DNA of 64,000 nucleotides from contig NC_052489.1 in NCBI RefSeq assembly GCF_009730915.1, positions 27,397,916 to 27,461,915 of the forward strand, written 5' to 3'. This document shows positions 37,691 to 64,000 of the stretch, piece by piece; position 1 is the first letter of the stretch, and each line of letters opens with the position of its first letter. The translations under genes and the position numbers were made by a program. This stretch comes from Dioscorea cayenensis subsp. rotundata. Taxonomy: Eukaryota > Streptophyta > Magnoliopsida > Dioscoreales > Dioscoreaceae. Under the pieces are notes generated by a model. That model had not been told where the DNA came from. It saw nothing but the letters and a program-made list of their open reading frames with translations, and ran no database searches.

Positions 37691-37721
<31 letters not shown>

Positions 37722-38706: not shown

Positions 38707-38747
<41 letters not shown>

Positions 38748-42190: not shown

Positions 42191-42304
42191 TCTAGGGTTG
42201 GTAATTATGTTTATGATTGTTATCAATATTATGCTATTATTATTAGTTCTAGGGTTGGTAATTATGTTTATGATTGTTATCAATATTATGCTATTCTTAT
42301 TACT
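42191..42304. repeat. 57-bp direct repeat, two copies
   Basis: Unit 42191-42247 (starting TCTAGGGTTGGTAATTATG) is repeated at 42248-42304 with one or two differences. Because 57 is a multiple of three, open frames run through it on both strands; they encode simple repeats and are not real genes. The same pair is found in copy 2 near 58862-58975. Confidence 0.85.
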
Positions 42305-42682
42305 AGATAGGTGGTTAATATTAGTTTTAAGATTTCTATTATTTAATTTTGATGGCTCTTTTTTTTGCAATAACTGTGATTCATCCATTTCCTCAGTATA
42401 ATGTATGAGATTTCATTACATTTGCATATTGAAGTCAAATGTCTTAACTACTCAATCATTAAAATAGTGGTCATGCAAAATCTTCATTAATCCCATTACT
42501 TAAGATTGAATTCCCCACCCCTAAAAAATGATATCTTCCCTTAAAAAAAAAATTATTTTGTAAAAAAGTATGTTTTAAGATTCTTCTCTATTGTTTGTAC
42601 TTCCTTAAATACTCTATTTGCATGATCTCTAAAAAGATATAAAAAAACCAACGCTCACATGCAATTAACATTCTCCGCAACA

Positions 42683-42727
<45 letters not shown>

Positions 42728-42982
42728 CCTCGTTCAATTTTGAAATTCAACTATTTGTACTTAAATTTCAATAATTTCTGGAAATTGTTTTCCAAAAAGA
42801 CAGGATCTTATTTAAAACTTGGAATGAAATACAAGAAAAAAATAAAAGGCTTTTATTTAATTGTACCACAACATTTCGAACAAACAAACATATTCAGCAA
42901 ATACAGAAATCACAAACACATATCTATAACAAACACAACAATAAATGAATCCCATTGAAGAATGACAGCATTCGCTCGCTAA
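42305..42982. other. Intergenic between the 57-bp repeat and GLP-B
   Basis: AT-rich with a TA run at 42690-42724, the site that holds a CACTA element in copy 2. The last 100-200 bases are probably the GLP-B 3' untranslated region. Confidence 0.5.
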
Positions 42983-43752
42983 CTAGAATTTAGACTGAAG
43001 ATAATCAATGATCTTCTTGTCCAATTGGAAGGCCTTAGCAAGAATACCATCATTAATGGGTGGATTAGAACCAAAAACAGTATTAGGGACAAGCACCACA
43101 CCAGGATCTTGACTCCCTAAGCCTGAAATGGCCACTGCTTTCTTGGCACCATAATTGAATTGGAAGTGAACAAGGCCTTTGGGGAAGACAAACACATCTC
43201 CTTTTTTCACAATCTTCGCGAACAGCTTGAAATCGGGAGCGGAGGTGACAAAGCCGACATAAAGCTCGCCTTCAAGCACCGTCATGATCTCGGTGCCACG
43301 GGGATGATAATGAGGGACAATGAGACCATAAGGAGCGAAATCAAGTCTTGCCAGTGATATTCCAAGAGTGTTCAACCCAGTAAGTTGTTCTACAAACACT
43401 GGTGTCACCGCTGACCCTTGAGGGTTTGATGTGTTCCCTGGTTTGTTGAGGCCGTGTGCGGTGAAATCATCGGCTGTAACGAGCTTTGGATTCTTGCAAA
43501 CAAAGCCATTGAAAAACACTGCAGCAAGGAGAACAATTCGTGAATTCAAGATCAGATATACACAATGTAAAAAAGATACATCAAGAATTACATGCATGCA
43601 TGCATGCACATGCATTGATAGTGATTAAATTCATACGTACCATTAGAGTTGAGGTCTGCCACACAAAAGTCTTGGAGAGGACTAGGGTCTGAAGCAAGTG
43701 AATAAGAGAAAGAGAAAGCTAAGAGAGCAAGAAGAAGGACATGGGAAGCCAT
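42983..43752 (-). CDS. GLP: Germin-like protein B (GLP-B)
   Basis: Two exons on the minus strand, 43752-43641 and 43518-42983, GT-AG intron in the same place as GLP-A, 215 residues. A signal peptide ends near residue 21. The metal site is complete: PHYHPRGTE (two His and Glu) and PKGLVHFQFNYG (His). It differs from GLP-A in many residues, for example KLVTADDFTAH, EGELYVGFVTSAPDFKLF and an added Lys pair in AKKAVAISG. TTTAAATAG at about 43807-43815 is the likely TATA element. Secreted, cell-wall located; enzymatic activity not predictable. The duplicate at 62995 differs by about eight residues. Confidence 0.94.
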
Positions 43753-44404
43753 CTTAATTAATTATCAATGGAGCTTGTGTGGTATCAAGTTCATGAGAAG
43801 AAGGGCTATTTAAAGGAAGTATGATATATGAGATGATGAAATGGTCTACAAGGTTTGGTATTTTACTTATTTGCATTCATTGATCTCTTCTTTCGATCAT
43901 CTTCAAATGTTAATTTATTATATGTTATTATATTGTGCTGAAATTAAGATGAAAGAAAGAAGGTAACACAAAAGACTAATTCCATGCTAATTAACCAGAA
44001 GGTTAGGTATATATATTATGTTAGTCAAAGTTCATTAGTTTCTCTGTTTTATCAATATTTTTTGTGTGTGGTTGGTTAGCTAACTAATTGGTGCAGTTAA
44101 TTTCCCATGATTAACGAATTATATAATCTCCTTTTCTTAAAAAAATATAATATAATCTGTCTTAATTAATTATTAACATGGGTTTAACTTAATTTTGACC
44201 TTTCACTTCTGCATTTGTTTTGATGCTAACCAAATCTGCATCAATTAATGTTGGATTTCTGAACTTAGTTCAAAGGAGCATTTCAACAAACACCTCATGC
44301 ACATGATCAAAATAAGGTTTAGTAGCTACACTATTTGACTACCAACTCATGCTAAAAATAATACATGACATTCCACAATTACAAACAAATAAAAAGAATT
44401 CTAA
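43753..44404. other. GLP-B upstream region
   Basis: Promoter and flank; matches the end of the window (63765-64000) as far as 43993. No gene between there and the Harbinger end at 44405. Confidence 0.5.
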
Positions 44405-44500
44405 TGCCTTGCTTGTTTGGGGGTTTTATATGGTTTTATAAAGTATGGTTTTAGATAAAACCTTGCTTGGATCCAAGGTTTTTGACATGGTAAGGTTTAT

Positions 44501-44540
44501 GGGGGTAAAATGGAGGTTCTCAAACCTCCATTTTACCCCC
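44501..44540. repeat. Perfect 18-bp inverted repeat (hairpin) near the Harbinger left end
   Basis: GGGGGTAAAATGGAGGTT is followed after four bases by its exact complement AACCTCCATTTTACCCCC. It lies about 95 bases inside the element. Confidence 0.85.
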
Positions 44541-45879
44541 ACTTCTCAACCCTCCAAATTGAGGGGTTGGGAGGGTTTTACATTTTTATTTGACAAAAAT
44601 ACCCTTTAACTTTTGTAATAATTACATACATGCCATTTGTATTAATTCACTCTAAGCTAGGACATTTGCTTCATTTCTCAGAGCCCTAGCTATACCAGCT
44701 ACGATTTTCCCATTGTTGCAAGTCACTCCAAGCTTAGCCGGAGCTTCACCGGACCTCCGTCGGACCTTCACCGAACCAAAGTTGAGGTAAGTTACTATGA
44801 GAACCCCCAATCTATGTATTTAAAATGAGGGTTCTTTCTCATTGAACAATGTGTGGTTGTTTGTTGGAAAAGCTTTGTTTTGTTGTTTGTATGAATTCTT
44901 AGATTTAAATTTATACAAAGGTGTTGGTGATTTATTTGTGCTGTTTTGTTATCTAGTGCTGGTTTTTGCAAAATTCCGATATCTTGTTGAATATATATAA
45001 TCTCTAGTATTGAGTAATGGGTCATTGTCTTTGGTAGGATTTTGTTTTTGCAGGCTGTGCTCATGATAATGGCATTACTGCTTTTTGTCCCTTGCTTTAA
45101 CTTCTAGAAACATGATTTGTGAGGCTTTGTTATATAATGTAGGTAATCTAGATTCTTGTTTTTGATTTTTATGTATCCTCCTTGTCATTTTTTTTTCCCA
45201 AAAGTCTAAGCATTTTATTTATGGAACTAGTTTGGTTATTGATACATAGAAATTGAGGAAGCTCAACATAAATGGAGTAGAATTTCAACAATGAGAAAAC
45301 ATATATTTCTTTGTTTCTTATGATGTTAACACCAAATTCATTTAAGTGGTACAAATATCCCATTGAAAGATGCACTAATGCTGTTCAGATGACTTAATAA
45401 AAAATTAAGAAAATATTTAAAAGATGCAGAACGTAATTTTTGCTTAGTTAGCAATGCATCTGGATCAGTCATCATAGAGACATAAACATTTACATCAAAC
45501 CTAAAATACAAAGGCAAAATGTTCCAAGTATAGCACAACCTAGTATTGCCATGAAATTTGCCATATAAACCAGTATTATCAAGTTCAACAGCTTGACACA
45601 AAGGATTTTTTTTTTTTTGCTTGAAACAGATAATTTCATATAGTGTGATGAACATTTTCAAGTTCTAAGAAACCTAAGTTATACCAAAAATTTAATATCA
45701 TGGCATCTATCATATGGTTAGATTAAAGAATAAAGAGCACATTAGACATTTAAGAGGATATCTCAATGTTCAAAATTGAACCAATAATTTTATTTTTTAG
45801 GTTGAAATCATAAGCAATATCCCATGGTTATCAATTAGAGTCCAAAGGCAAATCCAGGCCTAACCATGACGATACCAAC

Positions 45880-46172
45880 CTCTACACTGCCAGAAACCTC
45901 GTACCCTTCAATTTTAGTCTTAATCCACTCATTCACAACAAATGGACGGGTTGCATGGATCATTACACTTGATAGAAAATTTGTGAATATCTGCAACAAA
46001 AATAACATATTAAACCAGTCCATAATTTTCATCAAGTAAACATATACTAAAAGTATAGTGTTACACCATGTATTGATAATCAGTTGAATAGGTATTCTAA
46101 CATAAAAGACAGCACCTCACGGCCAGCAAGGGTCAGCAATACAGTTCCAAGACCTCCAGCAGTAAGCCATTT
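45880..46172 (-). pseudogene. Two captured exons of a plastid MscS-like (MSL2/3-type) channel gene
   Basis: On the minus strand, 46172-46116 encodes [19 protein letters not shown] and 45990-45880 encodes a 37-residue exon with [17 protein letters not shown] and [13 protein letters not shown]. Both have exact splice borders (AG before, GT after) and codon-phase agreement: 19 and 37 codons, joined by an intron of 125 bases. The pair is the central pore-lining and beta-domain region of plant MSL2/MSL3 mechanosensitive channels. No other MSL exons lie nearby. The fragment sits antisense to the transposase inside the Harbinger ends, so it is a transduplicated host fragment, not a working gene. Confidence 0.8.
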
Positions 46173-46545
46173 CTGGATTGAAGATAAACAGAAATGTCCT
46201 AAACTAAAAAATAAATCTCACTATATCACTCCTTTGTTCCTCACCTAGCTGCGATTTTCACAACCAGATTTTATTTATTTATTTATTTATTTTTCTAATG
46301 GAATTTTTTCATCATTATAGTCTGGTCCTTCTAATTTATGCTATTTCAAAGTCTTGTATTATATATTATTTCATTTCATTTCCATTTGTTATCATATTTC
46401 GTTTGAAGTCTGAAAACAAAGGTTTCTTTTTTAAAAAAACTAATATAATATTTCATTTCATTTGTTATCTTATTTCATTTGAAGTAAATTTTCCTTTTGT
46501 ATTGTTATTTTTTTAATATTCATGAATAAACTTTTCATGCTTTAG

Positions 46546-47666
46546 ATGGAAGATGAAAAAATTGCATTATGTAAAATGCTTCTCGTACGACAATTGTTGG
46601 ATAATCCTGTCATGAAATTGCACCACCTACATCATGTAGCAACAATTCAAGTTGTTATTGCCGTAATTGTTCGGCTTGTGCGACGCCGGATTGAAGTTAG
46701 ACGAAACAAAAGTCAAATAACACATGAGATACGGCTCGAAGGCGACCGAGCAAGAGATGAATTAATGTCACACTTGTTGTCAAGTGATTTATGTCATAGT
46801 ATGATTAGAATGAGTTCTTCAGCTTTTTTAAGTTTATGTGATATGTTAGTTAGAGATGGTGGTCTTCGAGCAACTTTGCACGTGTCGGTCGAGGAACAAG
46901 TTGCAAAAACTCTTTATGTATTAGGTCATAATGTTACACATCGTGAGTTATCTTTCTTTTTCCGGCATTCCCGTGAGACCACTTTTAGGCATTTTCATAA
47001 TGTATTGCAAGTTATAATAGAGTTGGAGGACAAATTTATAACACAACCTGATGGGGCACAAATTCCTTCAGAAATATTCAGCAGTAACAGATTCTATCCA
47101 TATTTCAAGGTAATGAAAAATTTATTAAATTCCAAGTTCACTATAAATACGTGAAAAATTTAGAATAAAATATGAGATGTGTTAATGTCAAGATTGTGTT
47201 GGTGCTATTGATGGAACACATATTCGGGATCAAAGTTTCTAGTGCTGAAGCTCCGAAATATCGTGTGAGGAAGGATTATCCAACACAAAACGTGTTAGTG
47301 GCATGCACATTTGACTTAAAATTCACATACGTGTTACCTGGGTGGGAAGGAACAACATCTGATTCAAGAATAATAAAGAATGCATTAAGTAGACCTTATC
47401 CTCTAAGAATTCCAGAAGGTATTCATAAGTATGATATAATGTTGTTCACAATTCCATATATATGCTCAACATGATAATAACATTTATTTTATTGTTAGGA
47501 AAATATTATCTTGTTGATGCGGGATTTATGTTAAGAAGTGGACTTATTACACCATACAAAGGAGAGCAATATCACTTGAAGGAGTATTCAAGGAATCCAC
47601 CAACAAATCCACGTGATAGGGACAACTGGACAACATGCCGAGACCGCGTCAGAGATGAGAAGTAGA
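46546..47666 (+). pseudogene. PIF/Harbinger DDE transposase (ALP1-like), defective
   Basis: Exon 1 (46546-47109) encodes the N-terminal region with a helix-rich DNA-binding part and ELSFFFRHSRETTFRHFHNVL. After a short intron, DCVGAIDGTHI supplies the first catalytic Asp, and VLPGWEGTTSDSRI the second. A later exon has KYYLVDAGFMLRSGLITPYKG. One base is added after GTHIR, shifting the frame. After NPPTNP the sequence jumps to DRDNWTTCRDRVRDEM, which resembles the family's extreme C-terminus, so the part with the catalytic Glu is missing. Length is well under the usual 400 or more residues. Inactive as it stands. Confidence 0.82.
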
Positions 47667-47669
47667 CTT

Positions 47670-49222
47670 CAAAATTCGGGAAATATATCACGTAGCCCTT
47701 ATTCGGCGGACACAATCAATGATATTGACTTTATGGTTTCCCAAAATGAAGTAAATTTGGAGAATTTGTGTGAGAATGAAAATATGACTTCACATGACAA
47801 TTAAGTTGAAGATGAAGCTTCACCACTAGATCAACCATCACAATTTGAGGCTCCAAGTTCTTTTAGGTCCAAAAGAGTTAGAAGAAATGACAATCATGAA
47901 GATGCAGACATGTCCATAGCTCTTGCGTCAATAGCTAGTGCTCTCGTTCAATCAACTAAGACAATGGAGAAAACAAATGCAACCATAGAAAGATCCACAA
48001 ATGTGCTAGAACAATATGTTGCAAATCGGGATCCACTTAAATATTTTGATGTATGGGATATGGTTACAAACATAGGAATGCCACAATATCTCCATACCAN
48101 NNNNNNNNNNNNNNNNNNNNNNNNNNNNNNNNNNNNNNNNNNNNNNNNNNNNNNNNNNNNNNNNNNNNNNNNNNNNNNNNNNNNNNNNNNNNNNNNNNNN
48201 NNNNNNNNNNNNNNNNNNNNNNNNNNNNNNNNNNNNNNNNNNNNNNNNNNNNNNNNNNNNNNNNNNNNNNNNNNNNNNNNNNNNNNNNNNNNNNNNNNNN
48301 NNNNNNNNNNNNNNNNNNNNNNNNNNNNNNNNNNNNNNNNNNNNNNNNNNNNNNNNNNNNNNNNNNNNNNNNNNNNNNNNNNNNNNNNNNNNNNNNNNNN
48401 NNNNNNNNNNNNNNNNNNNNNNNNNNNNNNNNNNNNNNNNNNNNNNNNNNNNNNNNNNNNNNNNNNNNNNNNNNNNNNNNNNNNNNNNNNNNNNNNNNNN
48501 NNNNNNNNNNNNNNNNNNNNNNNNNNNNNNNNNNNNNNNNNNNNNNNNNNNNNNNNNNNNNNNNNNNNNNNNNNNNNNNNNNNNNNNNNNNNNNNNNNNN
48601 NNNNNNNNNNNNNNNNNNNNNNNNNNNNNNNNNNNNNNNNNNNNNNNNNNNNNNNNNNNNNNNNNNNNNNNNNNNNNNNNNNNNNNNNNNNNNNNNNNNN
48701 NNNNNNNNNNNNNNNNNNNNNNNNNNNNNNNNNNNNNNNNNNNNNNNNNNNNNNNNNNNNNNNNNNNNNNNNNNNNNNNNNNNNNNNNNNNNNNNNNNNN
48801 NNNNNNNNNNNNNNNNNNNNNNNNNNNNNNNNNNNNNNNNNNNNNNNNNNNNNNNNNNNNNNNNNNNNNNNNNNNNNNNNNNNNNNNNNNNNNNNNNNNN
48901 NNNNNNNNNNNNNNNNNNNNNNNNNNNNNNNNNNNNNNNNNNNNNNNNNNNNNNNNNNNNNNNNNNNNNNNNNNNNNNNNNNNNNNNNNNNNNNNNNNNN
49001 NNNNNNNNNNNNNNNNNNNNNNNNNNNNNNNNNNNNNNNNNNNNNNNNNNNNNNNNNNNNNNNNNNNNNNNNNNNNNNNNNNNNNNNNNNNNNNNNNNNA
49101 AGGCATATGTGTTCCTTGTCAAAGACCCAAAAATGTTAGAAAGTGTGATTAGATGCCCGGACTCGCATTGCAAATCGGTGTTGTTGGAGTTAATGGGGCA
49201 TCATCATGAATCACAAGACTAA
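47670..49222 (+). pseudogene. Harbinger accessory (Myb/SANT-like) protein remnant, spans assembly gap
   Basis: Left of the gap (47910-48099) the protein reads ALASIASALVQSTKTMEK to DMVTNIGMPQYLHT; right of it (49100-49222) it continues KAYVFLVKDPKMLESVIRCP to LLELMGHHHESQD. These are adjacent parts of the C-terminal region of the Myb/SANT-like proteins carried by plant PIF/Harbinger elements. The upstream part (47670-47802) is in frame but ends in a stop, and the N-terminal Myb domain is not seen. It is a relic. Confidence 0.65.
48100..49099. other. Assembly gap of exactly 1000 N
   Basis: Exactly 1000 unknown bases, a placeholder size. The protein reading on each side suggests the real gap may be very short (see findings). 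Confidence 0.95.
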
Positions 49223-50039
49223 AAATGGAAGGTTCGTAATTTTTTGGATATTCATATCTTCACGAAAGTAATTTATTTTATATAATTTATTTGCTTAGAG
49301 TATTCTTTTATTTATTTTCTTTTATGTTATTAGTACATGAATTTAATTTGTTTTCAAATTTTTTTCCAATTTATCAGGGCGACTATGGTGGTTACTACAT
49401 CATCACAATGGTTTGTTACTCAATGTTTTGTGATGTAAGAACTTGCCTTTTGTTAAATGAAACAATGTTAAATGTGGGATTATATTATATGCACTACTTT
49501 GTTAATTGTGAATAAATTGTTGTTAAGTGTGAATTTCATTATGTCGACTATTTTGTTTTTTGTGGACAAATTTATATTAAGTGTTCGTTACATTATGTCG
49601 ACTATTTTGTTAATTATGTAAATTGTTGAATTTCTTTTTTTTTTTATGTGAACTTTGGTGTTCATTAGACTTTGTTCATTGTGTAAATTGTTCGATTTTT
49701 TTAATGTGAAATTTGGTTTGTATCAAGATTTTGTAATTGAAAAGTTTTATCATTTATTGTTATAACTTAATTGTAATAAATAAAAATATATTATTACAAA
49801 TTTATGTTTGATATGTATATATTTTAACATTCAAAGGGTCTTTTTTGTAATTTTAATATATAACTTAACTTTACCTTACCTTACCTTCAAACCAAGCATA
49901 ACATGGTTCATAAACCTTCATTTACTCTACCTTTGTTCCAAGCAAGATATGGTTTACAACCTCATTTACCATACCTTACCATACCTTACCATACTTTATA
50001 AAACCTTTCCAAACCTTCAAGGTTGCATATCCGCAACAA

Positions 50040-50979
50040 TCACTTTCTTGGCAGTCCACATTTACACATTTTAATACAGCTAGAAGGGCGAGCACGGGTA
50101 ACAAATCCCAGGTTATTTGATCTTCATTCTTCTAGTTCTTCTGTGGTATATCATCCGAATATACAATCAGTAAAGTCCAGTTCTGATGTCAAGGAGTATA
50201 TCGAGAAAGGGGGTGACTACGTGGACTGGGGTCAGTTCCAGGTTGACGGCAGATCGTCCAGAGACGGAAGACATAACTTGTCAACTGTCTATGCCGATGC
50301 ACTGAACTCTGGTTCAATGGAAGCTGCATTACAGATTATTTGGGAAAATAATCCCAGAGCTTTTACTTTACAATACCATAATCTTAAACCTAATTATGAA
50401 CGGATATTTCAGAAACCGTTGGATCTTTACACATAATTCTGGGATTATTCAATGTTCAAGATTACTCCACTTATGAATAATTAGCTTGAGCATAATTTTT
50501 AGATTAATTTTGCTGCGCGGCCGGACGAAAATATAATTAAACATAAGGAGGATTGTTTGTGGCCGACAAGCCTGATCGTTGAAGGACCAAGCAACATAGG
50601 AAAGACTGCTTGGGCCCGTTCTCTCGGTAAGCATAACTACATTTGCGGTCATTTGGATTTCAATCATGCCACGTTTCACCAGGACATGTTATACAATGTC
50701 ATTGATGATGTGGCGCCAAGTTATCTACGTATGAAACATTGGCGGGAGCTTATCAGTGCTTAGAGAGATTGGCAGACAAACTGTAAGTACGGCAAGTCAA
50801 TTCAAATTAAAGGTGGCATTCCGTCAATTGTTCTTTGTAACCCGGGCCATGATTCATGTTACAGGGAATATCTTGACAAGTTCGAGAATATGACCCTCCG
50901 TGAGTGGACACTGAAAAATGCCTCTTTTGAATTCCTGCATGATCCTCTTTACACAAAGGTTGACAACGGTAACCATGAC
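50040..50979 (+). pseudogene. Geminivirus Rep (replication initiator) remnant, partial and broken
   Basis: Recognisable family parts: the HLHILIQ endonuclease motif II region, YHPNIQSVKSSSDVKEYIEK carrying the nicking-tyrosine motif III region, WGQFQVDGRSSRDGR (the GRS-to-oligomerisation part), and the superfamily 3 helicase with the GPSNIGKT nucleotide-binding loop, YNVIDDV and MKHWRELI. Rep nicks the viral origin and unwinds DNA during rolling-circle replication. This copy is a broken fossil and is not expected to be expressed as a working protein. Confidence 0.88.
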
Positions 50980-53588
50980 TGTGAGCCCCACCCCTTAAAT
51001 TAGATCCTAGCCATCAATGCAAACTTTTTCAATCAGAGCCATTGATTTATAAGATTTTAAAACCCTTGTTCTTATCCTTGCGGTTACCACATATCACGAT
51101 CTGACTGCAACTCCACCGCCTACGATCTCCTATTGTTGTAGAAAAAAAAAACCATAGCCCTCATTTCCTTTACTTCATAGTGGTGCCGGCGGCAAGGACG
51201 AGTGGATCTTCTTATCGAGAGCTGTTTTGCTTCTTTGAAGGTAGGATCTTTGAGCTTTGTGCATAATATTAATGATTATTATTGATGCAGGTTGGCTCTA
51301 GATTTCTTTCTTTATGAAACCCTAAAATTTGTTTTTATTTGTGATTCACCTTTAATCCTTAGATTTAGCCCTTGAGTTTCTAGGGTTTGTTCCCAATTTG
51401 TAGTTTGAAGGAGTTTTGTTTCTTTTTTTGATATGTGCACCTAAACATATTCTTAGGATCTTTGACCGTGATGTTTTTATGGATTTAATCACATCTCAAG
51501 GATGATATTTTGCATGATATATTTGATGTAATGTGAAGTATAGTTGATTGAGGTATAATCTTTTGCCATGAGAAAGGAATTGTTAGTTGATTTAATTTGA
51601 TAGGTTTCAGATTTTTCGTTTTTGACAATAGCAAAAATCCCTCTCTGATTATATGGATTTTAGAGGAAGAATTTGGAGGAGAGTAAAATATAAAAGTTGT
51701 AGATTTTGATGTTACCTAGATACCTGCAAAGTTTCAGATTTTATGCATCTGTAGTTTGTGAGATATAGCTTTATTAGTATAATTATCTCGGATGATATTT
51801 CTGTGCAGAACTTGAAGAATCATGGCCAATTTTGATGATCAGGAAGATTGAATTAGATAAGGTGAAAAATAAGAAAGTCGTTCATTTTTTAGGTGTCTGA
51901 TTGTCAGCAAAGTTTCATTATGTTTGGAGTTGTAGATTAAGAGATATGCATATTTTAAAAGTATATGTCTGAATTATAATTTTGCAGAAATAGTTAGAGA
52001 TTCAATTGAATGTTATAAATTGAGTAGTACTCTAAATTATGTGAATTTTGGCTATGTCATAGTGTTAGGTGTCTATTATTCCCAGAATTTTTAAATTTGT
52101 GATTTGGAAAAGTGTAAGTGAAATTATGAGGGTTTTGGTACTCATTGATTATGTTGGAATTATTGATATGGCTTTTAGAGTGGGTAATTGCTATTGTACC
52201 CTCACAATAATCAATATTTGGGAGTGTAGAATAATAGTTTGAAATTTTTGCATTTGTACCCTTCTAAAAATCTTTTTGTTTAATACTATTGTTTGTTAGC
52301 CTCGATTTGTTATTTGAAAACTAATTGGATCTCTTCCCAAATATAGGACATGCTAAAGGTGTAAGGTTTGGGAGTATTTTTTTGGCGTTAATCAGGTAAG
52401 TATCCCACATATAAACCCTATTATATGTATATACTTGAAAATTCAAGTTTTGTGAACTTTTGGAATTTTTAAAGAAAATTACTGATTATTTTGACATATA
52501 TATTTTGAATTATTTATTTATTATTATTTTTGGAATTACTTTAAATTATTTGAAATTTTGAGTTAATGATATTTTATTTTGGATTAGAATTATCTGACAA
52601 GTTTAAATATTTATTTTAAATTCGGATTATTTAATTTGTAAAATTTTAAATAGTTTATCTAAATATGTATTATTTCAATTCTGAATTGTAGATATGTTGT
52701 TAGTTAATTTCTAATTAATTATTATTAAAAAAATTTTAAATTATCTGCTTATGTTTGGATTCAAGTAACTGGTTTATTTTGCTATGATAAAATGGGATCA
52801 TGCGACTGCTAAAAATTTTGTTTGGCAAGTTATTCGTATTTTGCCCAATCCGAATTTTGTTAGTTTATTGTTTTGTGAACATGCCGTATTTTGACATAAA
52901 AACTAGTCCCCAATTAACTATGCAATAGCCCTGTCACTGGGGGTTAAACACTGACCGTGTCGACACATATTTTGTTCTAGAAACTATAGTTTCCCACCGC
53001 CTGTCGGTGAAGAATATCGACCTTTGATAATTTTTGGCTCAGGGGTCATCGAGGGTAAAAAAATATGACTTTTGATAAATTTTGTCTCGGGGCACGAGGG
53101 TAAATATATAGATTACGTGATTTTTGTTTTTGGCAATAGTTGCTTGGGGGACCTATATGTTTAAATTTTTTTGACATCTATGTTTACGTGAAACAAATTT
53201 GTTTTTGGTGATTTTTGCAATTTGATAAATTATGATTTTTGTATAAGTGATTCCCTATATTTTTAGTGGGTGCTTCATCGAGTCGTCGAGCTTATAAATT
53301 TTTGTTGATATCTTTTTTCAGATCGGGAGTAGAGGTCGATAGCGGATAGCTTAGCAAGGATCGTTGAGCCAGCCTGCGTTTTATTTAGCTTGTAATAAGT
53401 CCCGATTGTTGTGGGCCTAGGTTTTATTTGAATAAGTTTATTTTGTTTTTGCAATCCACTGAGTTTGATTCTTTGTTTTGTTTTGGATCAGGATTTGAGG
53501 CCTTGTATGCCTACTTGGTTTCGGCCTTGTAGGTGTACGGTCGTTTGTCGGCGTCCCGGGTCCATAAAGCTTGGTTCGAGGCGTGACA
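50980..53588. mobile_element. Solo LTR of a Ty3/gypsy retrotransposon, Del/Tekay-like
   Basis: The 2609-bp sequence starts TGTGAGCCCCACCCC and ends GGTTCGAGGCGTGACA, with the TG...CA ends of a long terminal repeat. Flanking pentamers ATGAC (50975-50979) and GTGAC (53589-53593) differ at one base and fit a 5-bp target duplication. The length and the GTGACxCC / GGCGTGACA ends recall plant Del/Tekay chromoviruses. No internal coding region or second LTR is present, so it is the product of LTR-LTR recombination. It is inserted into the geminivirus relic and is therefore younger than it. Confidence 0.7.
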
Positions 53589-53593
53589 GTGAC

Positions 53594-54060
53594 GGTTTTC
53601 CTTCCTCAAGTTATTCTACTTAGTGATTGTTCTTGTTTGTTTTGCTTGTTTAAACATGGACAATAGAACGGGTGAGATCATCACAGAGGCACAGGCCAAT
53701 ACGGGGGTATTCTTTTGGAAGCTACATAATCCCTCGTATTTCCAGGTTAAAGAGCACATAGACAGACCCTTCTACAACAACTGGGGCCGTATAACAATGG
53801 AGATTAGGTTCAACTACAATCTCAGGCGAGCTTTAGGGATTCACAAATGCTGGCTCTTCTTCAGAATCTAGACCATCTTACGTCCTCGTTCGGAGAATTT
53901 TCTTCATGTTTTCAGATGTAATGTTAAGGATTTCCTAAGTAATTTCGGTGTTATTTCAATTAATTCGATTATTCGGGTTGTTCAACATTTTGTGGGCCAT
54001 TTTGAGCGGCATATCATTTCGGTAGATAAATCGGACCAAGTCCAGTTCAACCTGTACTAA
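53594..54060 (+). pseudogene. Geminivirus REn (C3, replication enhancer)-like remnant
   Basis: The N-terminal part reads MDNRTGEIITEAQANTGVFF and continues through an RFNYNLRRALGIHKCWLFFR segment, a close match to the C3/AC3 replication enhancer of begomovirus-like geminiviruses; a family-like C-terminus is still visible near 54055. It lies directly after the nested LTR, in the genome position expected for C3 relative to Rep. Broken; a fossil. Confidence 0.85.
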
Positions 54061-54886
54061 TTAATTCTAAGGATAGTTGTTTGTTGTTTATATATATAAT
54101 GTATGTACATATGGGTTGTGAACATTATCGTATGCATTGACATAATTATTTTATTTATATCGAAAATACTAGATACATAATAAAGAGACAGTCATAAATG
54201 CTGTATTGGATATGTATACTACAATAGGTATACAACTCACTAGCCGGTTGTAACTACTCCCTTTGAGGTTCCTACATCACCCAGATCCTGAATTTTCATT
54301 TTTTTCTTAATGCCACCTGGTTTGATGACAGTATATGCTTTGGTGATGTCTTCGTGTTCTTTACTTGTACTAGCAGCTACGCGTAGCATACGGTACATGG
54401 TTCTTCATGTTTGTGCAGTGCGTTGACGTAATCCAGAAGCGGTTGGGGGTTCTCTTCTATGGCTTTCGCGATACATATGCCGTGGATACATTTAATGAGG
54501 GCTGTGGGGCCGTAGCGGAGAAACAATAAATACACAGCCATTATCTATTCTTTCTATATATTTAATACTAATCTATTTATCTTCGGTCGTATATATAGTA
54601 AATATCCTTCCTCTCTACGATTCGTATTCTTCTTATCTAAAATTCCCAACGGTCATGATGTGAACAGCGGTCTGCATGTGGTTTATACAATATTAAATAA
54701 CGGTCAGGTCCCACCACACACAATTTGATAAAGCTTGTTCCCCAGTTATTTTGTTCTTTGTTAGGTTAATATTATTTTAATTGGGGTGGGTCCTACTAGC
54801 TTTGAAATTCTTGAGAAAGCATCTTCGCAGCAACTTTAATTTGAACAGACCAATCCTGACACGCCATGTGGCATGTACGGATCGGG
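54061..54886. other. Unassigned part of the geminivirus relic
   Basis: Lies between REn and the origin hairpin, where a geminivirus carries its virion-sense genes (coat protein, V2), read from the minus strand. I do not recognise coat-protein motifs. A minus-strand stretch starting MAVYLLFLRYGPTALIK around 54526 has an uninterrupted run of about 50 codons that I cannot assign to any family. Confidence 0.4.
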
Positions 54887-54898
54887 GCGGCCATCCGT
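54887..54898. other. One arm of the geminivirus origin stem-loop
   Basis: GCGGCCATCCGT matches the conserved arm GCGGCCATCCG of the geminivirus virion-strand origin hairpin, whose loop holds TAATATTAC. Here the arm is followed at once by plant sequence; loop and second arm are absent. It lies at the expected place and orientation relative to Rep and REn. Confidence 0.75.
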
Positions 54899-54899
54899 G

Positions 54900-56676
54900 T
54901 GCAATAACAAGTACAAACTACAATTTAACTAAATAAAAATCTAAAAAAAGAAACAAAATTTAATTTTTTATTTCTAAATGTCAGTATCCTCAACACAAAT
55001 TTTATTTTTGTCAACATTATTTTTATAAGGTGAACAAGCCATTGTGGGTTAGAAGGCTCAGCACCAATGTGGTAGAATTAGTCGTCTTGAAGCTCACTTG
55101 ACTGGGCACACTAGGGGTATACCTACCAGGTAGTCTAGTCAAAGGTGCATACAAGCACATACGCCGAGTTAATGATCACTCACACACATTGCAAGTGCCC
55201 TAATTTAGCTAGTAGAGGCACATAGTTAATTCCTCATGTGCTCTCTTAGAGGACCAATTTTGGGTCTCTTTTCACACATTGGGGATTGCCACTCGATCTA
55301 AAAATTTTTGCCTTGCCAACAAATGCCCTTCTAATTGTTTAAAATAAATCACTTAATTTTTTTAAAAAAAATATAGATATCACAAGTTTATGGTTTTATT
55401 TAATAATTTTTTTAGTAGTAATATTAAAATAATCATTAAGCAAATAGGTATATAGGCTTTGAAGTTTTTGTTCAGATATTTATAATATATATAATTTAAA
55501 TTATATGTTTCTTCTTTCAGGGTTGTGTTTGTTTGTTGTTGTTGAGACTTGCTTCATTTTTGATGACTGTGGTTAGCCTTTTGTTTGTGTATTTTTTTTA
55601 CTTTTTAATTTGTACTTTAGTTTGCTTGCTCTTGTCTGTAATTAGTGCTTATATGAAAAACATGCCCTTGTAGCTTCTTAAAAAAAAAGAATTATGTAAA
55701 CTATTTATTTCTTGAGGTACTTTTTTTAAAAATAATAAACTTGTTTAAATATATTCTTTAAAAGTATTTATTTCATAAGCAAAGTATTATTGTTTTAATT
55801 TTAAAAAATTAACCCAAACAGCATAAGAAGGAGATTGGCGTTTTTGTGTTTCAAAAAATAGACAAATAAATAAATAAACAAATACCACTTGTTTATTATT
55901 TTGTCCCCAACTGAAGATTGTGTCCATATATATATACATATACTTCTTATAAGATTTTTAATCTTTCACAAAATAGAATTATATAATTTTTTTATTATCA
56001 TAATTTATACTTAAAAGTTTTAATTTGATGATACATCCATCCATGCCCTTATCCATAATATATATATATATATAGACACACAAGTCCAATAAATATAAAT
56101 AAAACTAGAAGCTCCCAACAATTCATAGTTCCACTTAATTTGATCTATCTGGAGTAGAAACAACCCAGTGATTATTAAAATAATCAAACACATAAAAATC
56201 CCCAATGCACTTAAAATATCAACCCATTTATATTCATGTCCTTGCCTTCATCTGAACCGTAAACCTGCTCACTGTCTTATTCTCACATTAATATTTAATT
56301 ATCTGTCTGCGCACAGGCCAATCACACCAACTATATATGTTTGGATCAAGCGCAATATCATATATATATATATATATATATATATGTTTTACCCTTAAGC
56401 TCTCACAAGTTATCACTACTCAATTATTCAAAAAAAAAAGTTATCACTACTCACACCTTAAACTTCCACACTGTCTTTTTTTCATGATTAATTCTCCACA
56501 CAATTAATTAATATTCCTTGTATCATAATCAAATCAAATATTAATCATATATAAAGGCATCCAACATGCAAACAAGCATGTTTGCTTATTTCCAAAACAT
56601 AGTAAATATATCTATAGGTATATTAATTATGCATGTGAAGCGGTAGCTAGTGGGTACGTAATTATATAAGTAAATA
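54900..56676. other. Intergenic, left part of copy 2
   Basis: Non-coding; carries the shared SINE- or LINE-like tail near 55010 and TA runs at 56059-56074 and 56360-56383. No gene. Confidence 0.5.
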
Positions 56677-57464
56677 CTAGAATTTGGACTGGAGGTAGTC
56701 AATGATCTTCACGTCCAGTTGAAAGGCCTTGGCAAGAATAGCATCATTAATGGGTGGATTAGAACCAAAGACTGCATTAGGGATGAGCACAACACCAGGG
56801 TCTTGGCTCCCCTAACCCCTGAAAATGGCCACTGCTGGGGTATCACCATAGTTGAATTGGAAGTGAATGAGACCTTGAGGGAAGACAAACACATCTCCCT
56901 TCTTTACCACCTGTGTGAAAAGTTGGAAATTAGGGGAAGGAGGTGACGAAACCGACGTGAAGTGTGCCTTCGATCACCGTCATGATTTCAGTTCCCCGGG
57001 GATGATAGTGAGGAGGAATCAGACCATAAGGTGCAAAAATCTAATCTTGCAAGTGAGACACCAAGAGTGTTCAGGCCTGGAAGTTGTTGTACAAACACTG
57101 GTGTCACTGCAGAGCCTTGAGGGTTGGATGTGTTGCCCTGGCATGTCCAGGCCGTGAAAGGTGAAATCATCAGCTGAGACGACTTGTGGAGATTTGCAGA
57201 CAAATCCATTCACGAGCACTGAAATCAAGAACAAGAACCATAGAATATAAATATTGATCACAATGACATATATATATAGATCATGCATGCACAAAAACCT
57301 ACGTTAAACTTAATTTGTATGTGCATGCATGCATGTATATTACAAGTACCAGTGGATTTGAGGTCTGCAACACAGAAATCCTGGAGAGGACTTGGATCTG
57401 AAGCAAGAGAATGAGAGAAAGCCAAAGCTAAGAGAGAAAGAAGAAGAACATAAGAAGTAGCCAT
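56677..57464 (-). pseudogene. GLP: Germin-like protein A' (copy 2), apparent frameshifts
   Basis: Same two-exon gene as GLP-A: exon 1 57464-57350 intact, exon 2 57218-56677. Exon 2 differs from GLP-A only by six extra single bases, each lengthening a short run of C, A or G (near 56808, 56815, 56821, 56936, 57035 and 57135). Exons and intron show no substitutions. The insertions scramble the frame locally, though the total (+6) restores the stop. All metal-binding motifs are present in pieces. As annotated it is a pseudogene, but the pattern is that of consensus errors, so the real gene may be intact and identical to GLP-A. Confidence 0.85.
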
Positions 57465-59385
57465 CTTCTTAATTAATTTGTTTATTTCTCTCAATGCTAT
57501 GAGTACTACTTTAGCTTTGATCTTTAATGGGGTAATGAAGGATCTATATATAGAACTAGGGTTTGAAGCAGTCTTACATGGGTGCATAAGCATGTTTGAG
57601 AAGATGAAAAGGTCTACAATGTTTGGTATTGCTTGCATTCTCTCTTACCATCAGTTACTGCAGAGAAGATACATCCTAAATTCTAAGAGAAAGGGAACCT
57701 AATTAATTAGATGATACCTAATGCTAGAAATTCCTACTCTAATAAAGACTCGTTCCTTCATTGAAGTTGGTGTTGAAATTTTTTTCATAATGGATTTGAT
57801 ATTGTATAATTTGTGACAAATCGTCTTAGGATTAAACTTGTCTTATTAGACCTGTTCAAATGAGTGAATATATATATTTGTCAAAGGTTGAAAAGTAATT
57901 AGAGCCCAAGTTTCATAGGAATTTTCCAAATGGTGGTTAATTTACACATATCCTCTATATATTTATTAAAGCATATAGTGACAATCTCATCAACTCTAAT
58001 ATATATATATATATATATAAGTTCTCTATTGTCACATATATTTTGCAATTAATTGAATGACTCATCTTTATTAGCAGGCCAAAAGAATTAAAATGATATT
58101 TTCAGTTTCAAAGTAAGAGTGTGTTATTTATAAACTCATCATGCGATTTTCATAAATATAATATATAATAGATTTTCTTTTTTCTTCGTTTTCTTTCTTG
58201 TCCATTTGGATGGGCCTTGCCTTACATGACTAAACTTCTATCTAAACTAACTTTTTAGATTAAAGTCCATGATGTCATTTTGAAATAACAGATTTTTATT
58301 TCTAAACTACTTCAATAAATTAATGGATGTGAATAATCAATACAACAAGTTTCATCTTACTTAATTATTTTATTTTATTAAAAAATATGGACAAATTACT
58401 CTTGAGAGGAGAAAATTCAGCTTGCTTGTGAGTTAACTTTCCTACATAAAGATTAGTCTTAATTGTAATAAGATAAATTCATATCTCAATTTTGTGGTAT
58501 AAGTATTAAGATATGATTGTAAAAAAAGAGATGATAAATGGTTTAAATTAATTATATATAATTAATTAGGATGAATACCCACAGTATAAATTAAGGAAGA
58601 ATTTTTGAATTATCCACAAGTCTCTGAATTTGTTTTTTTTGGAATAAAGTCTCTGAAAAAATTTCAATATATATAGTTATAAAATCCTCATTTCTCAAAA
58701 AATAAATAAATAAAACCCACAAAAGTTTTTATTTAATCATACCATTTTTAATTTTTTATAGTTTTTTTGAAAAATAAAGTTTTTTTTTTTTGGATAATTG
58801 GAACTTTGTGAGGGATTTATGTGTCTTTTTCAACAAAATAAACAAAAATAACATCCTTAGTTCTAAGGTTGGTAATTATGTTTATGATTGTTATCAATAT
58901 TATGCTATTATTATTAGTTCTAGGGTTGGTAATTATGTTTATGATTGTTATCAATATTATGCTATTCTTATTACTAGATATGTGATTAATATTAGTTTTA
59001 AAATTTTTGTTATTTACTTTTGGTGGCTCTCTTTTGACCAATAATTAAATTAAATGTGATCCATCCATTTTTTCAATATAATGTATGAGAGATTTCATTA
59101 CATTTGCATATTGAAGTCAAATGTCTTAACTACTCAGTCATTAAAATAGTAGTCATGCAAAATCTTCATTAATCTCATTACTTAATATTGAATTCTCTAC
59201 CCCTAAAAAATAAATCTTTTGCAAAAAAATATCTTCTCTTAAAAAAAAATTATTTTGCAAAAAGTATGTTTTAAGATTCTTCTCTATTGTTTGTACTTCC
59301 TTAAATACTCTATTTGCATGATCTCTGAAAAGATATAAAAAACCAACGCTCACATGCAATTAACATTCTCCGCAACAATACATAT
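57465..59385. other. Upstream flank of GLP-A' in copy 2
   Basis: Promoter with CTATATATAG at 57544-57553, then non-coding DNA matching 40190-42650 of copy 1 with one instead of two 729-bp units. Contains the 57-bp direct repeat pair at about 58862-58975. No gene. Confidence 0.5.
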
Positions 59386-59689
59386 ATACACTACAAGAAA
59401 TTAGTGATTTCGCGGCACTCATTTCCCGGCGGTTTTACCTAAATGGCCGCCTGTGTTGCACATTGGGGCGGTTTAGATGGCAGTTAAATGAACGGCCGGT
59501 GTTTTCTTTCATTTGGTGGCGGTTTTTGGTTAAAACGGCCGTTAATTCCGTGGTATTGGCGTCAGTTACATCGGAACAGCCGAGGATGCTATGTAATAGG
59601 CGGCAGTTATGTAACAAACCGCCGGGAACTTATTATTTTCCCGTTGGACGACAACGACTACTTTCTTTTCTCTCGCCCACCCAGCCTGG

Positions 59690-60092
59690 CCGCTTCGCTT
59701 GTTAGGGTTTTTTCACTTTCCCTTTTGCCTCTCTCTTCTCTTCCCGGCCATCTCTCTCCTCTCTCCTTTTCCCGGCCATCTTTCTCCTCTTCCCGGCCAT
59801 CAATCCATCGATCCATCCGAGTTTGCTGCCTTCGATCGTTAACCAACACGCCGGCCATCAACCACTTGTTACATTCAATCTCGGCTTTTCACTCATCTCC
59901 ACGGTAAATCATCTCATTTTGAAACATTATTGGTGATCTTGTTTTTTCAAGCCATCAATTGATGATCTGGTGGCCATCAACCCCTTCACGATCGCTCACG
60001 TCGTCTCTGGTTTCTTGTTTTTTTTGCTTCTTGCCAGAGTCCGATGGTGAGGATGATAGCTCGTCTTCTCAAAGCGAAGCTGTGAAAGAAGA
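59690..60092 (+). other. Host-like leader and small exon inside the CACTA element
   Basis: 59690-59905 looks like a plant 5' leader (CT-rich, TCTCTCTTCTC runs, Kozak-poor), followed by GT (59905) and an intron-like stretch. The segment 60038-60092, bounded by AG and GT, encodes SDGEDDSSSSQSEAVKEE, an acidic, Ser-rich stretch. With the exon at 62050 it may come from a captured gene; its identity is uncertain. Confidence 0.4.
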
Positions 60093-61832
60093 GTATGTCT
60101 TCTTTTATTCTCTTGTTCTCTTGTTCTTCTCTCTATATTCATGGGTGTATGTGGTTCTCCTCTGTGCTTTTCTCTTGCTCGGTTGTTGATTGTTGGTGTT
60201 GGTCCGATCGCGGAGAGGAAGGTTGGTGCTTGCTCTGTTTGGGTTTTTCTTGGGGGAAGATGGAATGGCGAGGTGGGCAATGGCGTCATGCATGGTGTGT
60301 GTGTGTTTGTTGGGAGTTAAGTAAAACAGTGAAATGAGTCTAAATTTTAGAAGCTAATTGACATTTAATTAGAATATAATCTGCGAATTCTTTTGCTTTG
60401 TGGCATCATATGCTTGTAGTGGTCGAGATTTTGTTATAATCACACTTTGCATGGTTTTCTAAGATCACGATTTTATTGTTCTAGTAAATCAGTTGCAAAT
60501 TTTAATTTTAATAAGACAGACTCCTTTCTAAGTTTGATAAGAGATCATCTAAGGCCATTATCATCTTGCTCCTACAATAAGATTTTAAGTTTATACCTTC
60601 AATTAACATTGATGCATATTGAACATTAGTAGTTGATATCTGAAGGACCAAAAGTCTGAAAGTTTCTGTCTGCTTTGTGTGCTGTATTTACTTTTAAACC
60701 TTTTTCCTCTGTAGATTCATCTTGTTCATCTTAAGCCTTGTTATAAACTTATAATTACTTTTAAACCTTTTTCCTCTGTAGATTCAGATATGTTAAAGAA
60801 ATTCTATAGCATGTTGATTTTCTGTGCATGATTTAGATAAATTACTGAAGATGCTATAATATGATGCCATTGTGTTGGTTGTACACATGCATCTAAGTCT
60901 TTGTCTTCTCTTGAGGGTTTTAGCACAGTAGTGGAAGTTTGATTAGCCCCATATTCCTATAGTCATTTTCCTGCTGATCTATCTATCTATCCTCTATGTA
61001 TGTTTGTCTGCATGTATTTATATTTATATGCAGGCTACATTCCTTGCATGTGCAATGAAGTTAATTTGTGCAATTTGAATGATGATGACTATTCTGTATT
61101 CATGAACAGATATATCATAGTGAATGAATTTTTAGGCTGTAAAGTGGTCTGGATAAAATGGAAGGTGTGACATGATAAAATGGTATAAGTGCGATATTGC
61201 ATGAAGTCCTAGCTAAGTTGTGATGAGCTGTGAACTTTGGGATACATTAGTCAATGCTTTTAGCCTTTTATTGTTGCCTAACACTATGTTTTTAGGTTTT
61301 TCTTGAGAAGTACATTGGATGTGGCCTTTTTGTATCTTGTTGCTGAGTTTGGTGCTGCTAATTTATTCCTATACTAATTTCAACTATTCAAGAAATACAT
61401 AAGCTCCTAGTTTGCCTCTAAAGCATTCTCCCTCTTTTGTAGGGTTTTCTTGGTCACTGTGCGGAATTTTTTTTCCTGGATTGATATTTTCTTACTATTG
61501 GTGGTGGTCGTCTCCATCAATTAAGGTACCATTTGTTAATGATATTTAAACTTGTTTAGCAAAATTATTATTGCTATGATGTTAATATGGATAAATTCTA
61601 ACTAAAGCAATTAGGAAATAGATGCAACATGTGAGAGGACCATTTTAGAGAACAAATTACACTAATAATATGAACAACTTGTACAATGTGAACAGACAAA
61701 TATAACACTATAAATATTGGTAAGAGTTTTAATTTATGGTATTTACTAAGTTATTTGTCTAGGCTTAATTTGAACAATTTATATTAATAAATAAATTTTG
61801 TGTTGTTTATTTTTAGACAGTTTTAACTAAAC

Positions 61833-61943
61833 ATGGAAAAATCATGGATTACAATGCCGCGAAACTCAGTTGCATATGACCAAGGTGTTAAGAATTTTAT
61901 TGAATTTGCTTTCCGGCATGGTTCAATTAATGATAAGCAATAG
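61833..61943 (+). pseudogene. CACTA transposase-associated domain fragment
   Basis: A 36-codon frame, MEKSWITMPRNSVAYDQGVK then NFIEFAFRHGSIND, matches the start of the plant CACTA transposase (the transposase-associated domain: Asp/Glu-Lys-Ser-Trp, then Gly-Val-x-x-Phe-Ile-x-Phe-Ala). It ends in a stop, and nothing else of the transposase is seen. Confidence 0.65.
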
Positions 61944-62049
61944 TCTTCTCGTTATGGTTTAATTTTAACTATAGTTTTCATATTTAGGTACTAAATGTTT
62001 TTGCATATTCACCTTTGTATAGTTCTCAGTTCTAGTTGACACATTACAG

Positions 62050-62161
62050 GGGCACACTGAGCCTGTTAATGTTGACTTGGATGACAAGAGGTCTTACTTG
62101 TTAATGATGGATTTTTCAGAGGAAGAAGTTGCCATGGCAATTAATCAGTTAAACTATGGTG
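62050..62161 (+). pseudogene. UBA-like exon captured in the CACTA element
   Basis: After an AG acceptor (62048-62049) the frame reads GHTEPVNVDLDDKRSYLLMM then DFSEEEVAMAINQLNYG. The core x-x-FSEEEVxxAIxxL is a ubiquitin-associated (UBA) helix pattern. It resembles the UBA domains of plant DRM-type DNA methyltransferases, which also have acidic Ser-rich N-termini, but that assignment is inference. It is a fragment without the rest of a gene. Confidence 0.45.
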
Positions 62162-62732
62162 ATATATTGTCATTCAGTTCACATTGTATTGGTGTAATGG
62201 CAATGATGATTTCAACATAAGTATGAAGCCTTGTTTTTCAATATAATATGTTTGCAGCTTAGAGAGAAAACAAATTTGTAAATTTGACTTAATTATTAAT
62301 GAGTTATAAATAAATTTTTTATAATTTTTAAATATTAATTGAATGAGTTCAATGCACAGGATTCAAATGAGTTCAATGCACAGGATTCATATATATATAT
62401 ATATATATATAATTGTCAAAATATCAAATAAAAAATAAAAAAGAATTTAAAAAAATCAAACCCACGGCGGTTTACGCATGAACTGCCGCCACTTTCTCCG
62501 AGTTCCTCTGTTTGATCTCTTTATAATTTAACGGCCGTTATATAACCGCCAAGAATTCTCGTACGCATTTCGCGGCCGTTGTACCGGCCGTTCTATAAAA
62601 CCGCCGTGAATTACTCTCCCGACGTTCATATACACGGCGGTGTTGCAACTGCCATTGGTTTCATTTAGCGGCGATTATAACCGCCGCTAAATGATTTTAA
62701 AACCGCCCCAAAAAACATGATTTCTTGTAGTG

Positions 62733-62994
62733 ATATGTTCCTGGTTCAATTTTGAAATTCAACTGTTTGTACTTAAATTTTAATAATTTCTGGAAATTGT
62801 TTTCCAAAAAGACAGGATCTTATTTAAAACTTGGAATGAATTACAAACAAATAATAAAAGGCTTTTATTTAATTGTACCACAACAATCCGAACAAACAAA
62901 CATATTCAGCAAATACAGAAATCACAAATACATATCTATAACAAACACAACAATAAATGAATCCCATTGAAGAATGACAGCATTAGTTCACTAG
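62733..62994. other. GLP-B' 3' flank
   Basis: Resumes the copy 1 sequence (42725 onward) after the CACTA element; probable 3' untranslated region of GLP-B' on the minus strand. Confidence 0.5.
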
Positions 62995-63764
62995 TTAGAA
63001 TTTAGACTGAAGATAATCAATGATCTTCTTGTCCAATTGGAAGGCCTTAGCAAGAATACCATCATTAATGGGTGGATTAGAACCAAAAACAGCATTAGGG
63101 ACAAGCACCACACCAGGATCTTGACTCCCTAAGCCTGAAATGGCCACTGCTTTCTTGGCACCATAATTGAATTGGAAGTGAACAAGGCCTTTGGGGAAGA
63201 CAAACACATCTCCTTTCTTCACAATCTTCGTGAACAGCTTGAAATCGGGAGCGGAGGTGACAAAGCCGACATAAAGCTCGCCTTCAAGCACCGTCATGAT
63301 CTCAGTGCCACGGGGATGATAATGAGGGACAATGAGACCATAAGGAGCGAAATCAAGTCTTGCCAGTGATACTCCAAGAGTGTTTAACCCAGTAAGTTGT
63401 TCTACAAACACTGGTGTCACTGCTGACCCTTGAGGGTTTGATGTGTTCCCTGGTTTGTCGAGGCTATGTGCGGTGAAATCATCAGCTGTAACGAGCTTTG
63501 GACTCTTGCAAACAAAGCCATTGACAAACACTGCAGCAAGGAGAACAATTCATGAATTCAAGATTAGATATACACAACGTAAAAAAGATACATCGAGAGT
63601 TACATGCATGCATGCATGCACATGCATTGATAGTGATAAAATTAGTACGTACTATTAGAGTTGAGGTCTGCCACACAAAAGTCTTGGAGAGGACTAGGGT
63701 CTGAAGCAAGTGAATAAGAGAAAGAGAGAGCTAAGAGAGCAAGAAGAAGGACAAGGGAAGCCAT
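62995..63764 (-). CDS. GLP: Germin-like protein B' (copy 2)
   Basis: Two exons on the minus strand, 63764-63653 and 63530-62995, GT-AG intron, 215 residues; intact. Signal peptide, PHYHPRGTE metal box and PKGLVHFQFNYG box as in GLP-B. About eight residue differences from GLP-B, among them Met-Phe-Val for Val-Phe-Phe at the exon junction, Ser for Asn in VCKSP, Ser-Leu-Asp for Gly-Leu-Asn, Val for Ile in LGVSLA, Thr for Ala in KLFTKI and Ala for Thr in VPNAVF. The donor site changed by one base but keeps GT. Secreted cupin; activity not predictable. Confidence 0.94.
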
Positions 63765-64000
63765 CTTAATTAATTATCAATGGAGCTTGTGTGGTATCAA
63801 GTTCATGAGAAGAAGGGCTATTTAAAGGAAGTATGATATATGAGATGATGAAATGGTCTACAAGGTTTGGTATTTTACTTATTTGCATTCATTGATCTCT
63901 TCTTTCGATCATCTTCAAATGTTAATTTATTATATGTTATTATATTGTGCTGAAATTAAGATGAAAGAAAGAAGGTAACACAAAAGACTAATTCCATGCT
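63765..64000. other. GLP-B' promoter, cut by the window end
   Basis: Nearly identical to 43753-43993 of copy 1, including the TTTAAATAG TATA-like element at about 63819-63827. Confidence 0.5.

Follow-up and report, generated by a model that had tools for sequence, protein, structure and literature searches.

The relic and its host setting

The window (the whole 64-kb stretch of DNA that was analysed, C19:27397916-27461915) contains a geminivirus relic in complementary sense (50054-54900), the reading frames of which are broken, between two copies of a germin-like gene cluster. The features of the locus are as follows.

35676-44404: host unit A, a germin-like gene cluster, the last bases of which resume at 50018-50053 (36 bases)
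44405-50017: DNA transposon of 5.6 kb in the host flank of unit A, with terminal inverted repeats (pair 44417-44449 and 49988-50020); none in unit B
50054-50979, plus strand: Rep remnant starting near residue 53 of Rep (HLH motif), its frame broken by stops (Pfam, PDB); the virion-strand 3' end of the insert
50980-53588: probable solo LTR of 2.6 kb inside the relic, with a near-duplicated target (ATGAC / GTGAC)
53658-54060, plus strand: REn (AL3/C3) remnant, frame broken near 53871; Pfam Gemini_AL3 in two pieces and frames (E = 6.3e-19 and 1.8e-7)
54060-54560, minus strand: expected place of the virion-sense genes, with short open frames without a family match
54560-54886, plus strand: viral intergenic region on the coat-protein side, in complementary sense; 21 genome places matched (window included), several continuing into intact origin hairpins
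54887-54897, plus strand: 5' arm of the origin hairpin in complementary-sense reading, identical in intact origins elsewhere in the genome
54898-54900, plus strand: TGT, the part of the loop before the Rep nick (complementary to the virion-strand 5'-ACA); intact loops read TGTAATATTA
54900-64000: host unit B, a direct duplicate of unit A, running beyond the window to about L009:5213-5216

Upstream of the hairpin arm, Rep and REn lie in the expected order and orientation. The Rep piece at 50002-50436 matches Pfam Gemini_AL1 (E = 2.4e-27) and AL1_M (E = 9.4e-6) and is also aligned to the solved Rep domain PDB 1l2m; its first ~18 residues are host, and the first residues of the Pfam/PDB match (50029-50053) are likewise host DNA. 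The stretch at 50503-51003 is putatively Rep, judging from its position and a P-loop recognized by eye, and gave no match in the Pfam search for Rep. The other end of the virus lies inside Rep at about 50054, where host identity to unit B stops (50053-50056), and roughly the first 52 Rep residues are missing from the insert. A candidate Rep N-terminus to the left of the transposon (44319-44405) was rejected, as PDB and Pfam returned nothing and unit B shows the sequence to be host. On the minus strand, 54240-54404 and 54377-54544 have no Pfam match at E<=10; these short virion-sense frames (54240-54544) are possibly remnants of fast-evolving virion-sense genes. No relative was found when viral contigs were scanned with REn, one virion-sense frame and two Rep pieces, and no second copy of the solo-LTR-like element was found in the window. 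The locus thus has the Rep and REn domains of an endogenous geminivirus (Pfam AL1, AL1_M and AL3), with host flanks on both sides that match a virus-free duplicate.

The duplicate is the germin-like cluster itself (Pfam Cupin_1, E = 1.6e-50, for 42983-43624 in unit A). Past the window, unit B matches unit A as far as the left edge of the transposon and then for 39 bases beyond the transposon: L009:5178-5216 matches 50018-50056, and beyond these bases unit B is followed by host DNA and unit A by Rep. A search to the left of the relic did not find the sequence that flanks unit A on its left (before 35676). As the far end of unit B is virus-free host DNA and the left flank of unit A is missing beside the relic, the structure is L-U-virus-U-R, and the relic occupies precisely the point where the two copies of a tandem duplication of ~8.8-9 kb of germin-like genes meet. 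One event probably made both the integration and the duplication, the virus bridging two breaks. The initial annotation had pointed to copy 1 (about 35690-35695) for the empty site; copy 1, at 35676, supplies one half, and the other half is found beyond the window, downstream of unit B (L009:5178-5216), which rules out copy 1 as the full empty site. On each side, the host boundary of this site reads A|T.

Units A and B differ by 60 substitutions in 712 positions beside the junction and by 235 in 6817 over seven collinear blocks (summed). If integration and duplication were a single event, this divergence dates the integration, which would then be a few million years old at assumed plant rates, gene conversion being likely in the genes. 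Divergence between the two copies (35676-44404 and 54900-64000) is uneven among blocks, from 0.5% to 8% substitutions, suggesting gene conversion.

Several further differences and neighbours were observed. Unit A has an extra germin gene fragment with promoter at 36399-37269 (similar to 43313-44063), which is missing at that point of unit B, and unit B has its own 4.6-kb insertion just before its end (L009:398-5038), including a distant inverse germin-like match. The transposon at 44405-50017 appears PIF/Harbinger-like by eye, has no family match and includes a run of 1000 N (48100-49099). Elsewhere in the window, putative berberine-bridge-like oxidase genes were recognized by eye from the reading frames at 11584-13257, 18720-20396 and 23411-25118.

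The right junction and the origin hairpin

In geminivirus replication, Rep nicks the virion strand at TAATATT^AC and stays on the 5' end. At the right end of the relic, the junction reads GCGGCCATCCG-TGT|GCAATAAC, and the host DNA past TGT is homologous to 35676 onward. Intact origins of the same genome read GCGGCCATCCG-TGTAATATTA (L041, L042, L046, L053 and L059), which in complementary sense gives GCGGCCATCCG-TGT^AATATTA, where ^ is the Rep nick; alignments of the window with L046 and L059 end at +3. Because the intact loops are TGTAATATTA, the nick falls after TGT, and the relic in the window extends to the nick itself. Nothing viral is missing at this end, and a single base, the T at 54900, is common to virus and host (TGCAATAAC). 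That the TG before the junction is filler is ruled out by the intact relatives, in which TG is viral loop.

The initial annotation had placed the end of the relic at the arm plus a few bases, followed by plant DNA and almost exactly at the nick, and the end is tighter than it claimed. Its expectation of the loop GCGGCCATCCG-GT, and hence of GCGGCCATCCGGT, was not borne out: it followed from the begomovirus origin, which has the arm, then GT, then AATATTA, whereas the relatives of the window read TGTAATATTA. The GT loop is that of a modern begomovirus, in which the nonanucleotide spans the last and first genome positions (published primer in the available text of PMC12907893), and of another lineage in this genome (L022).

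The arm GCGGCCATCCG at 54887-54897 is the single match in the 64-kb window, even with one mismatch, against 0.03 matches expected in shuffled sequence. In the 584-Mb genome it occurs 58 times, against 15 for the reversed control; all 57 occurrences besides that of the window were inspected, and the arm, for which a non-viral identity had also been considered, is viral at many genome places. Of the hairpin, the relic in the window retains a single arm and the loop as far as the nick, and the nonanucleotide is absent from it; exact TAATATTAC is found four times in the window, each time away from the relic end. The origin hairpin with TAATATTAC is found in the relatives, which keep intact hairpins with AATATTA. 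The same host-virus junction, shorter by two bases (TG), is found on contig C43 together with the same LTR. This unplaced contig (C43:13819-18900; L063, L113) has a divergent second copy of the locus, relic and LTR included, which is ~12% different and may be a haplotype or a paralogue.

Relic ends across the genome

Relic ends were surveyed with origin-flanking sequence as queries, so that loci were not picked through the arm, and each match was read to its passage into other DNA. The 5' side of the virion strand was covered by three lineage queries and the 3' side by two, the third lineage being represented on the 5' side only. Queried spans of 341 or 306 bases are the basis of the uniform expectation.

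The first 5' query matched 21 places: seven (six events, window included) end within 3 nt of the nick, four (two events) at -4/-5 and three elsewhere, one is ambiguous (L070) and six run through an intact loop. Among the 45 places of the second 5' query, nine events end within 3 nt (one already in the first query), four end elsewhere and one is ambiguous (L116); four further events are virus-virus joins at the nick or one nucleotide away, the rest are mostly intact loops or array-internal, and one 46-base fragment was left unread. The third 5' query matched 44 places, with ten (eight events) within 3 nt, two elsewhere, ten (six events) ambiguous with a perhaps degenerate loop, four (one event) virus-virus, 16 through or internal and two fragments of counted elements. 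On the 3' side, the first query matched 42 places (four events within 3 nt; 12 events at 14 places elsewhere; 24 places through or fragments) and the second 36 (one event within 3 nt; eight events at nine places elsewhere, one at -7; one ambiguous, L166; two array places unread; 23 others through or already counted).

In total, 22 of 33 readable virus-host 5' ends are no more than 3 nt from the nick; they have distinct host flanks and were all read by eye, unblinded, in one assembly of one genome. Eleven are exactly on the nick, three are at 0 to +2, six at -1 and two at -2; the other 11 readable ends lie beyond 3 nt (two at -4/-5, nine further in). The fraction is 14/23 in the first two queries, after which the 3-nt limit was set, and 8/10 in the third lineage, which was read with the limit already fixed. 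Eight ambiguous 5' events, mostly with a degenerate loop, stand outside this count; taken as misses, they make it 22/41. On the 3' side, 5 of 25 ends lie within 3 nt, two of these five (L089, L112) being placed to 1-3 nt only.

Loci found only via the arm were excluded from the counts: L005/L055, L017/L033 and L007 (virion-sense-oriented; 3' ends at 0, -4 and -6), L004 (0) and L045/L047 (0). The arm finds L026/L027 and L039 recur in the third 5' query, among its ambiguous events. Virus-virus joins (L014, L120, L121, L129 and L179/L181) and joins inside arrays (three C14 places in the second 5' query, L197 in the third) were also left out of the 5' tally.

The 5' and 3' sides differ significantly (22/33 vs 5/25; Fisher p = 0.0005 for three 5' queries), on the assumption, common to all P values here, of independent events, independence being judged from distinct host flanks only. 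The difference holds with the first two 5' queries only (p = 0.007) and with all ambiguous ends as misses (22/41; p = 0.006). Against a uniform expectation of ~2% within 3 nt, the 5' excess has P < 1e-9 in each set, in the third set even with ambiguous ends as misses; the 3' excess at the nick is moderate (P = 2e-4). Precise 5' ends with imprecise 3' ends are a T-DNA-like pattern. The initial annotation had proposed that the relic end may record a Rep-linked, nicked intermediate, with ends scattered over the viral genome as the contrary observation; clustering is seen instead at the 5' side, which supports the proposal.

Within the hairpin, 19 of the 24 5' ends between -5 and +7 of the nick fall at 0, -1 or -2 (P = 1e-8 vs uniform through the hairpin). 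The nick does not lie at the centre of the loop, and the lineages differ in how far it is from the arm (TGT^ or CAGT^ after CCG, and GT^ after CCG in the third); the 5' ends track the nick in each lineage despite the different loops. At 16 5' ends (14 from the set of 22, plus L004 and L045), the host flank starts with C in six, A in five, G in three and T in two, and no base preference is evident in these flanks. This suggests that the integration site is chosen by the break and not by Rep, with the A|T boundaries of the relic in the window, the only copy for which the empty site was read, as a counterpoint.

Joins between viral units

Virus-virus joins at the nick or 1-2 nt from it are found at L129 (C18), L121 (C16), L014 (C5), L120 (C16) and L179/L181 (C4, C334). 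Three of these (L129, L121 and L014) are head-to-head inverted repeats, at the nick or 1 nt off, and the L129 join, CAGT|ACTG, is a fusion of two nick ends. On C16, an exact 5' end is separated by one unit (2555 bp) from an intact loop, which lies upstream in complementary sense, and on C20 an end at -5 has an intact internal loop 2511 bp away. This shape, with a defined 5' end and an arbitrary 3' end, is the one that rolling-circle concatemers would have.

Origin-bearing geminivirus units also form clusters or tandem arrays at C5:10049528-10054849, C9:26758910-26770988, C13:3702980-3706313, C14:13292790-13300559 and C18:7825012-7844103. In those with regular spacing, the units are ~0.8 to 2.5 kb apart.

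Mode of entry

A random break is rejected as the origin of the relic end in the window. An ancient begomovirus-like geminivirus may instead have begun rolling-circle replication in a nucleus of the germline lineage, where Rep would have cut the virion strand at TAATATT^AC and remained on its 5' end. The nicked strand, or a double-stranded form, would have been joined by this 5' end to broken host DNA with no viral loss, and the 3' end would have been joined at an arbitrary point within Rep. The two host ends would be the two sides of the ~9-kb germin-gene segment, making the virus the bridge of the tandem duplication, and many other relics in this genome would have entered with the same polarity, the 5' end at the nick and the 3' end eroded. 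This account as a whole, from the 5' entry of a nicked strand to the eroded 3' end and the duplication bridge, is considered likely. The substrate would be a replication intermediate. Attachment of Rep at the time of joining would fit both the 5'/3' asymmetry and the absence of an evident target preference; against this linkage, a Rep-free nicked linear end would leave the identical sequence, the linkage itself leaving no direct trace.

Rep might also have made the linear end and then left, so that recombination-dependent or double-stranded linear viral DNA entered by ordinary end-joining. The head-to-head nick joins (L129, L121) would form most easily from double-stranded ends, and the v-ori is described as a recombination hot spot in the available text of PMC3187698. 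This course of events is unlikely, since by itself it leaves precise 5' ends beside imprecise 3' ends unexplained.

Helitrons employ an HUH nickase and have a hairpin at one end. Rolling-circle transposition, in which Rep from chromosomal copies would have moved relics within the genome in a Helitron-like manner with one end fixed at the nick, is consistent with the many copies that have one such end, and the A|T boundaries of the empty site in the window resemble a Helitron target. Transposition has been put forward for elements of yam and Nicotiana as well as for Rep relics generally, and the likeness of the geminivirus elements to Helitrons has been remarked (PMC5014472 and PMC3198968 for the former, PMC5014472 for the latter, in the text available). 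However, of the four elements for which both ends were read (the relic in the window; L101+L073, L089+L077 and L100+L072, pairs treated as single elements on the basis of contig, strand and a spacing of ~2.2 kb), none is nick-ended on both sides, and the 16 5' flanks lack an evident target preference. Compared nick-ended copies with different flanks are ~70-85% alike, which indicates no recent burst among those copies, and the truncated Rep of the relic in the window also argues against movement by transposition. Transposition is thus unlikely, and the strand appears to enter as if by repair.

For the window only, the germin units might have been duplicated first, or a hairpin break might have come with a later duplication, the junction then being the duplication breakpoint. 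It is true that host homology begins right at the junction and that units A and B meet at the relic. This reading is improbable: the far end of unit B continues into relic-free host DNA, both viral ends are unit ends, so that a later duplication must have hit twice, and many other loci, at which only the ends were read, have nick-exact ends. That the hairpin broke without Rep, as a fragile palindrome or a cruciform, whether before integration or after it, is most improbable. Two 5' ends do lie within the arm (L082, L064-66), and a 3' end is found at -7 (L167), but the concentration of 19/24 5' ends at 0/-1/-2, off-centre and tracking the nick across the loops of the lineages, speaks against it, and a generic hairpin break is rejected.

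Relation to known systems and significance

Endogenous geminiviruses are known in yams, Nicotiana, tea and other plants (PMC5014472 and PMC7758297, in the text available). EGV1/EGV2 of Dioscorea (PMC5014472) and GRD of Nicotiana resemble the present relics in being degenerate begomovirus-like Rep/REn sequences in plant chromosomes, often in tandem arrays, and EGV1 and GRD also have an origin-bearing intergenic region. Coat, movement or transactivator genes are not reported for EGV1/EGV2 in the available text (PMC5014472). The present relics differ in that the origins described for EGV1/EGV2 and GRD lie inside repeats, with no nick ends, 5'/3' asymmetry or duplicated target in the accessible descriptions. 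In the accessible parts of the open-licence literature, no report of nick ends, strand polarity or a duplicated target in geminivirus relics was found.

Like VirD2, geminivirus Rep is a nickase that remains on the 5' end. T-DNA involves a bacterial conjugation-derived relaxase and strand; in the geminivirus, the nickase is a viral HUH Rep and the strand would be a replication intermediate. The likeness between the two would be one of mechanism only, and the relic is not claimed to be T-DNA. Agrobacterium T-DNA, with its VirD2-linked right border, shares with the relics a precise 5' end, an eroded 3' end, end-to-end fusions and rearranged targets (PMC5618600, PMC8348815). In the available text on alfalfa, right-border (5') junctions are precise or 1 bp short in 9/15, and no left-border junction is precise, with deletions of 6-133 bp (PMC5618600); T-DNA targets are described as rearranged or duplicated in the available text of PMC8348815.

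The nick-anchored 5' ends suggest that these viruses may enter chromosomes by a cut strand end, as Agrobacterium T-DNA does. It would be a further step, on which confidence is evenly balanced, to regard geminivirus Rep as a chance equivalent of VirD2, a 5' end capped by Rep being the normal way into the germline, with exact 5' ends, eroded 3' ends and concatemers behind, and with the bridging of breaks duplicating kilobases of host genes. For ssDNA viruses that lack an integrase, the usual explanation of entry into chromosomes is non-homologous recombination. In the fossils of this one genome, the entering end is very often the end made by the viral replication enzyme, with the strand polarity of T-DNA. 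A guess on entry thereby becomes a rule that can be checked in any plant genome with geminivirus fossils; the nick provides a marker by which the true ends of relics can be placed, and a viral replication intermediate may be linked to a large gene duplication.
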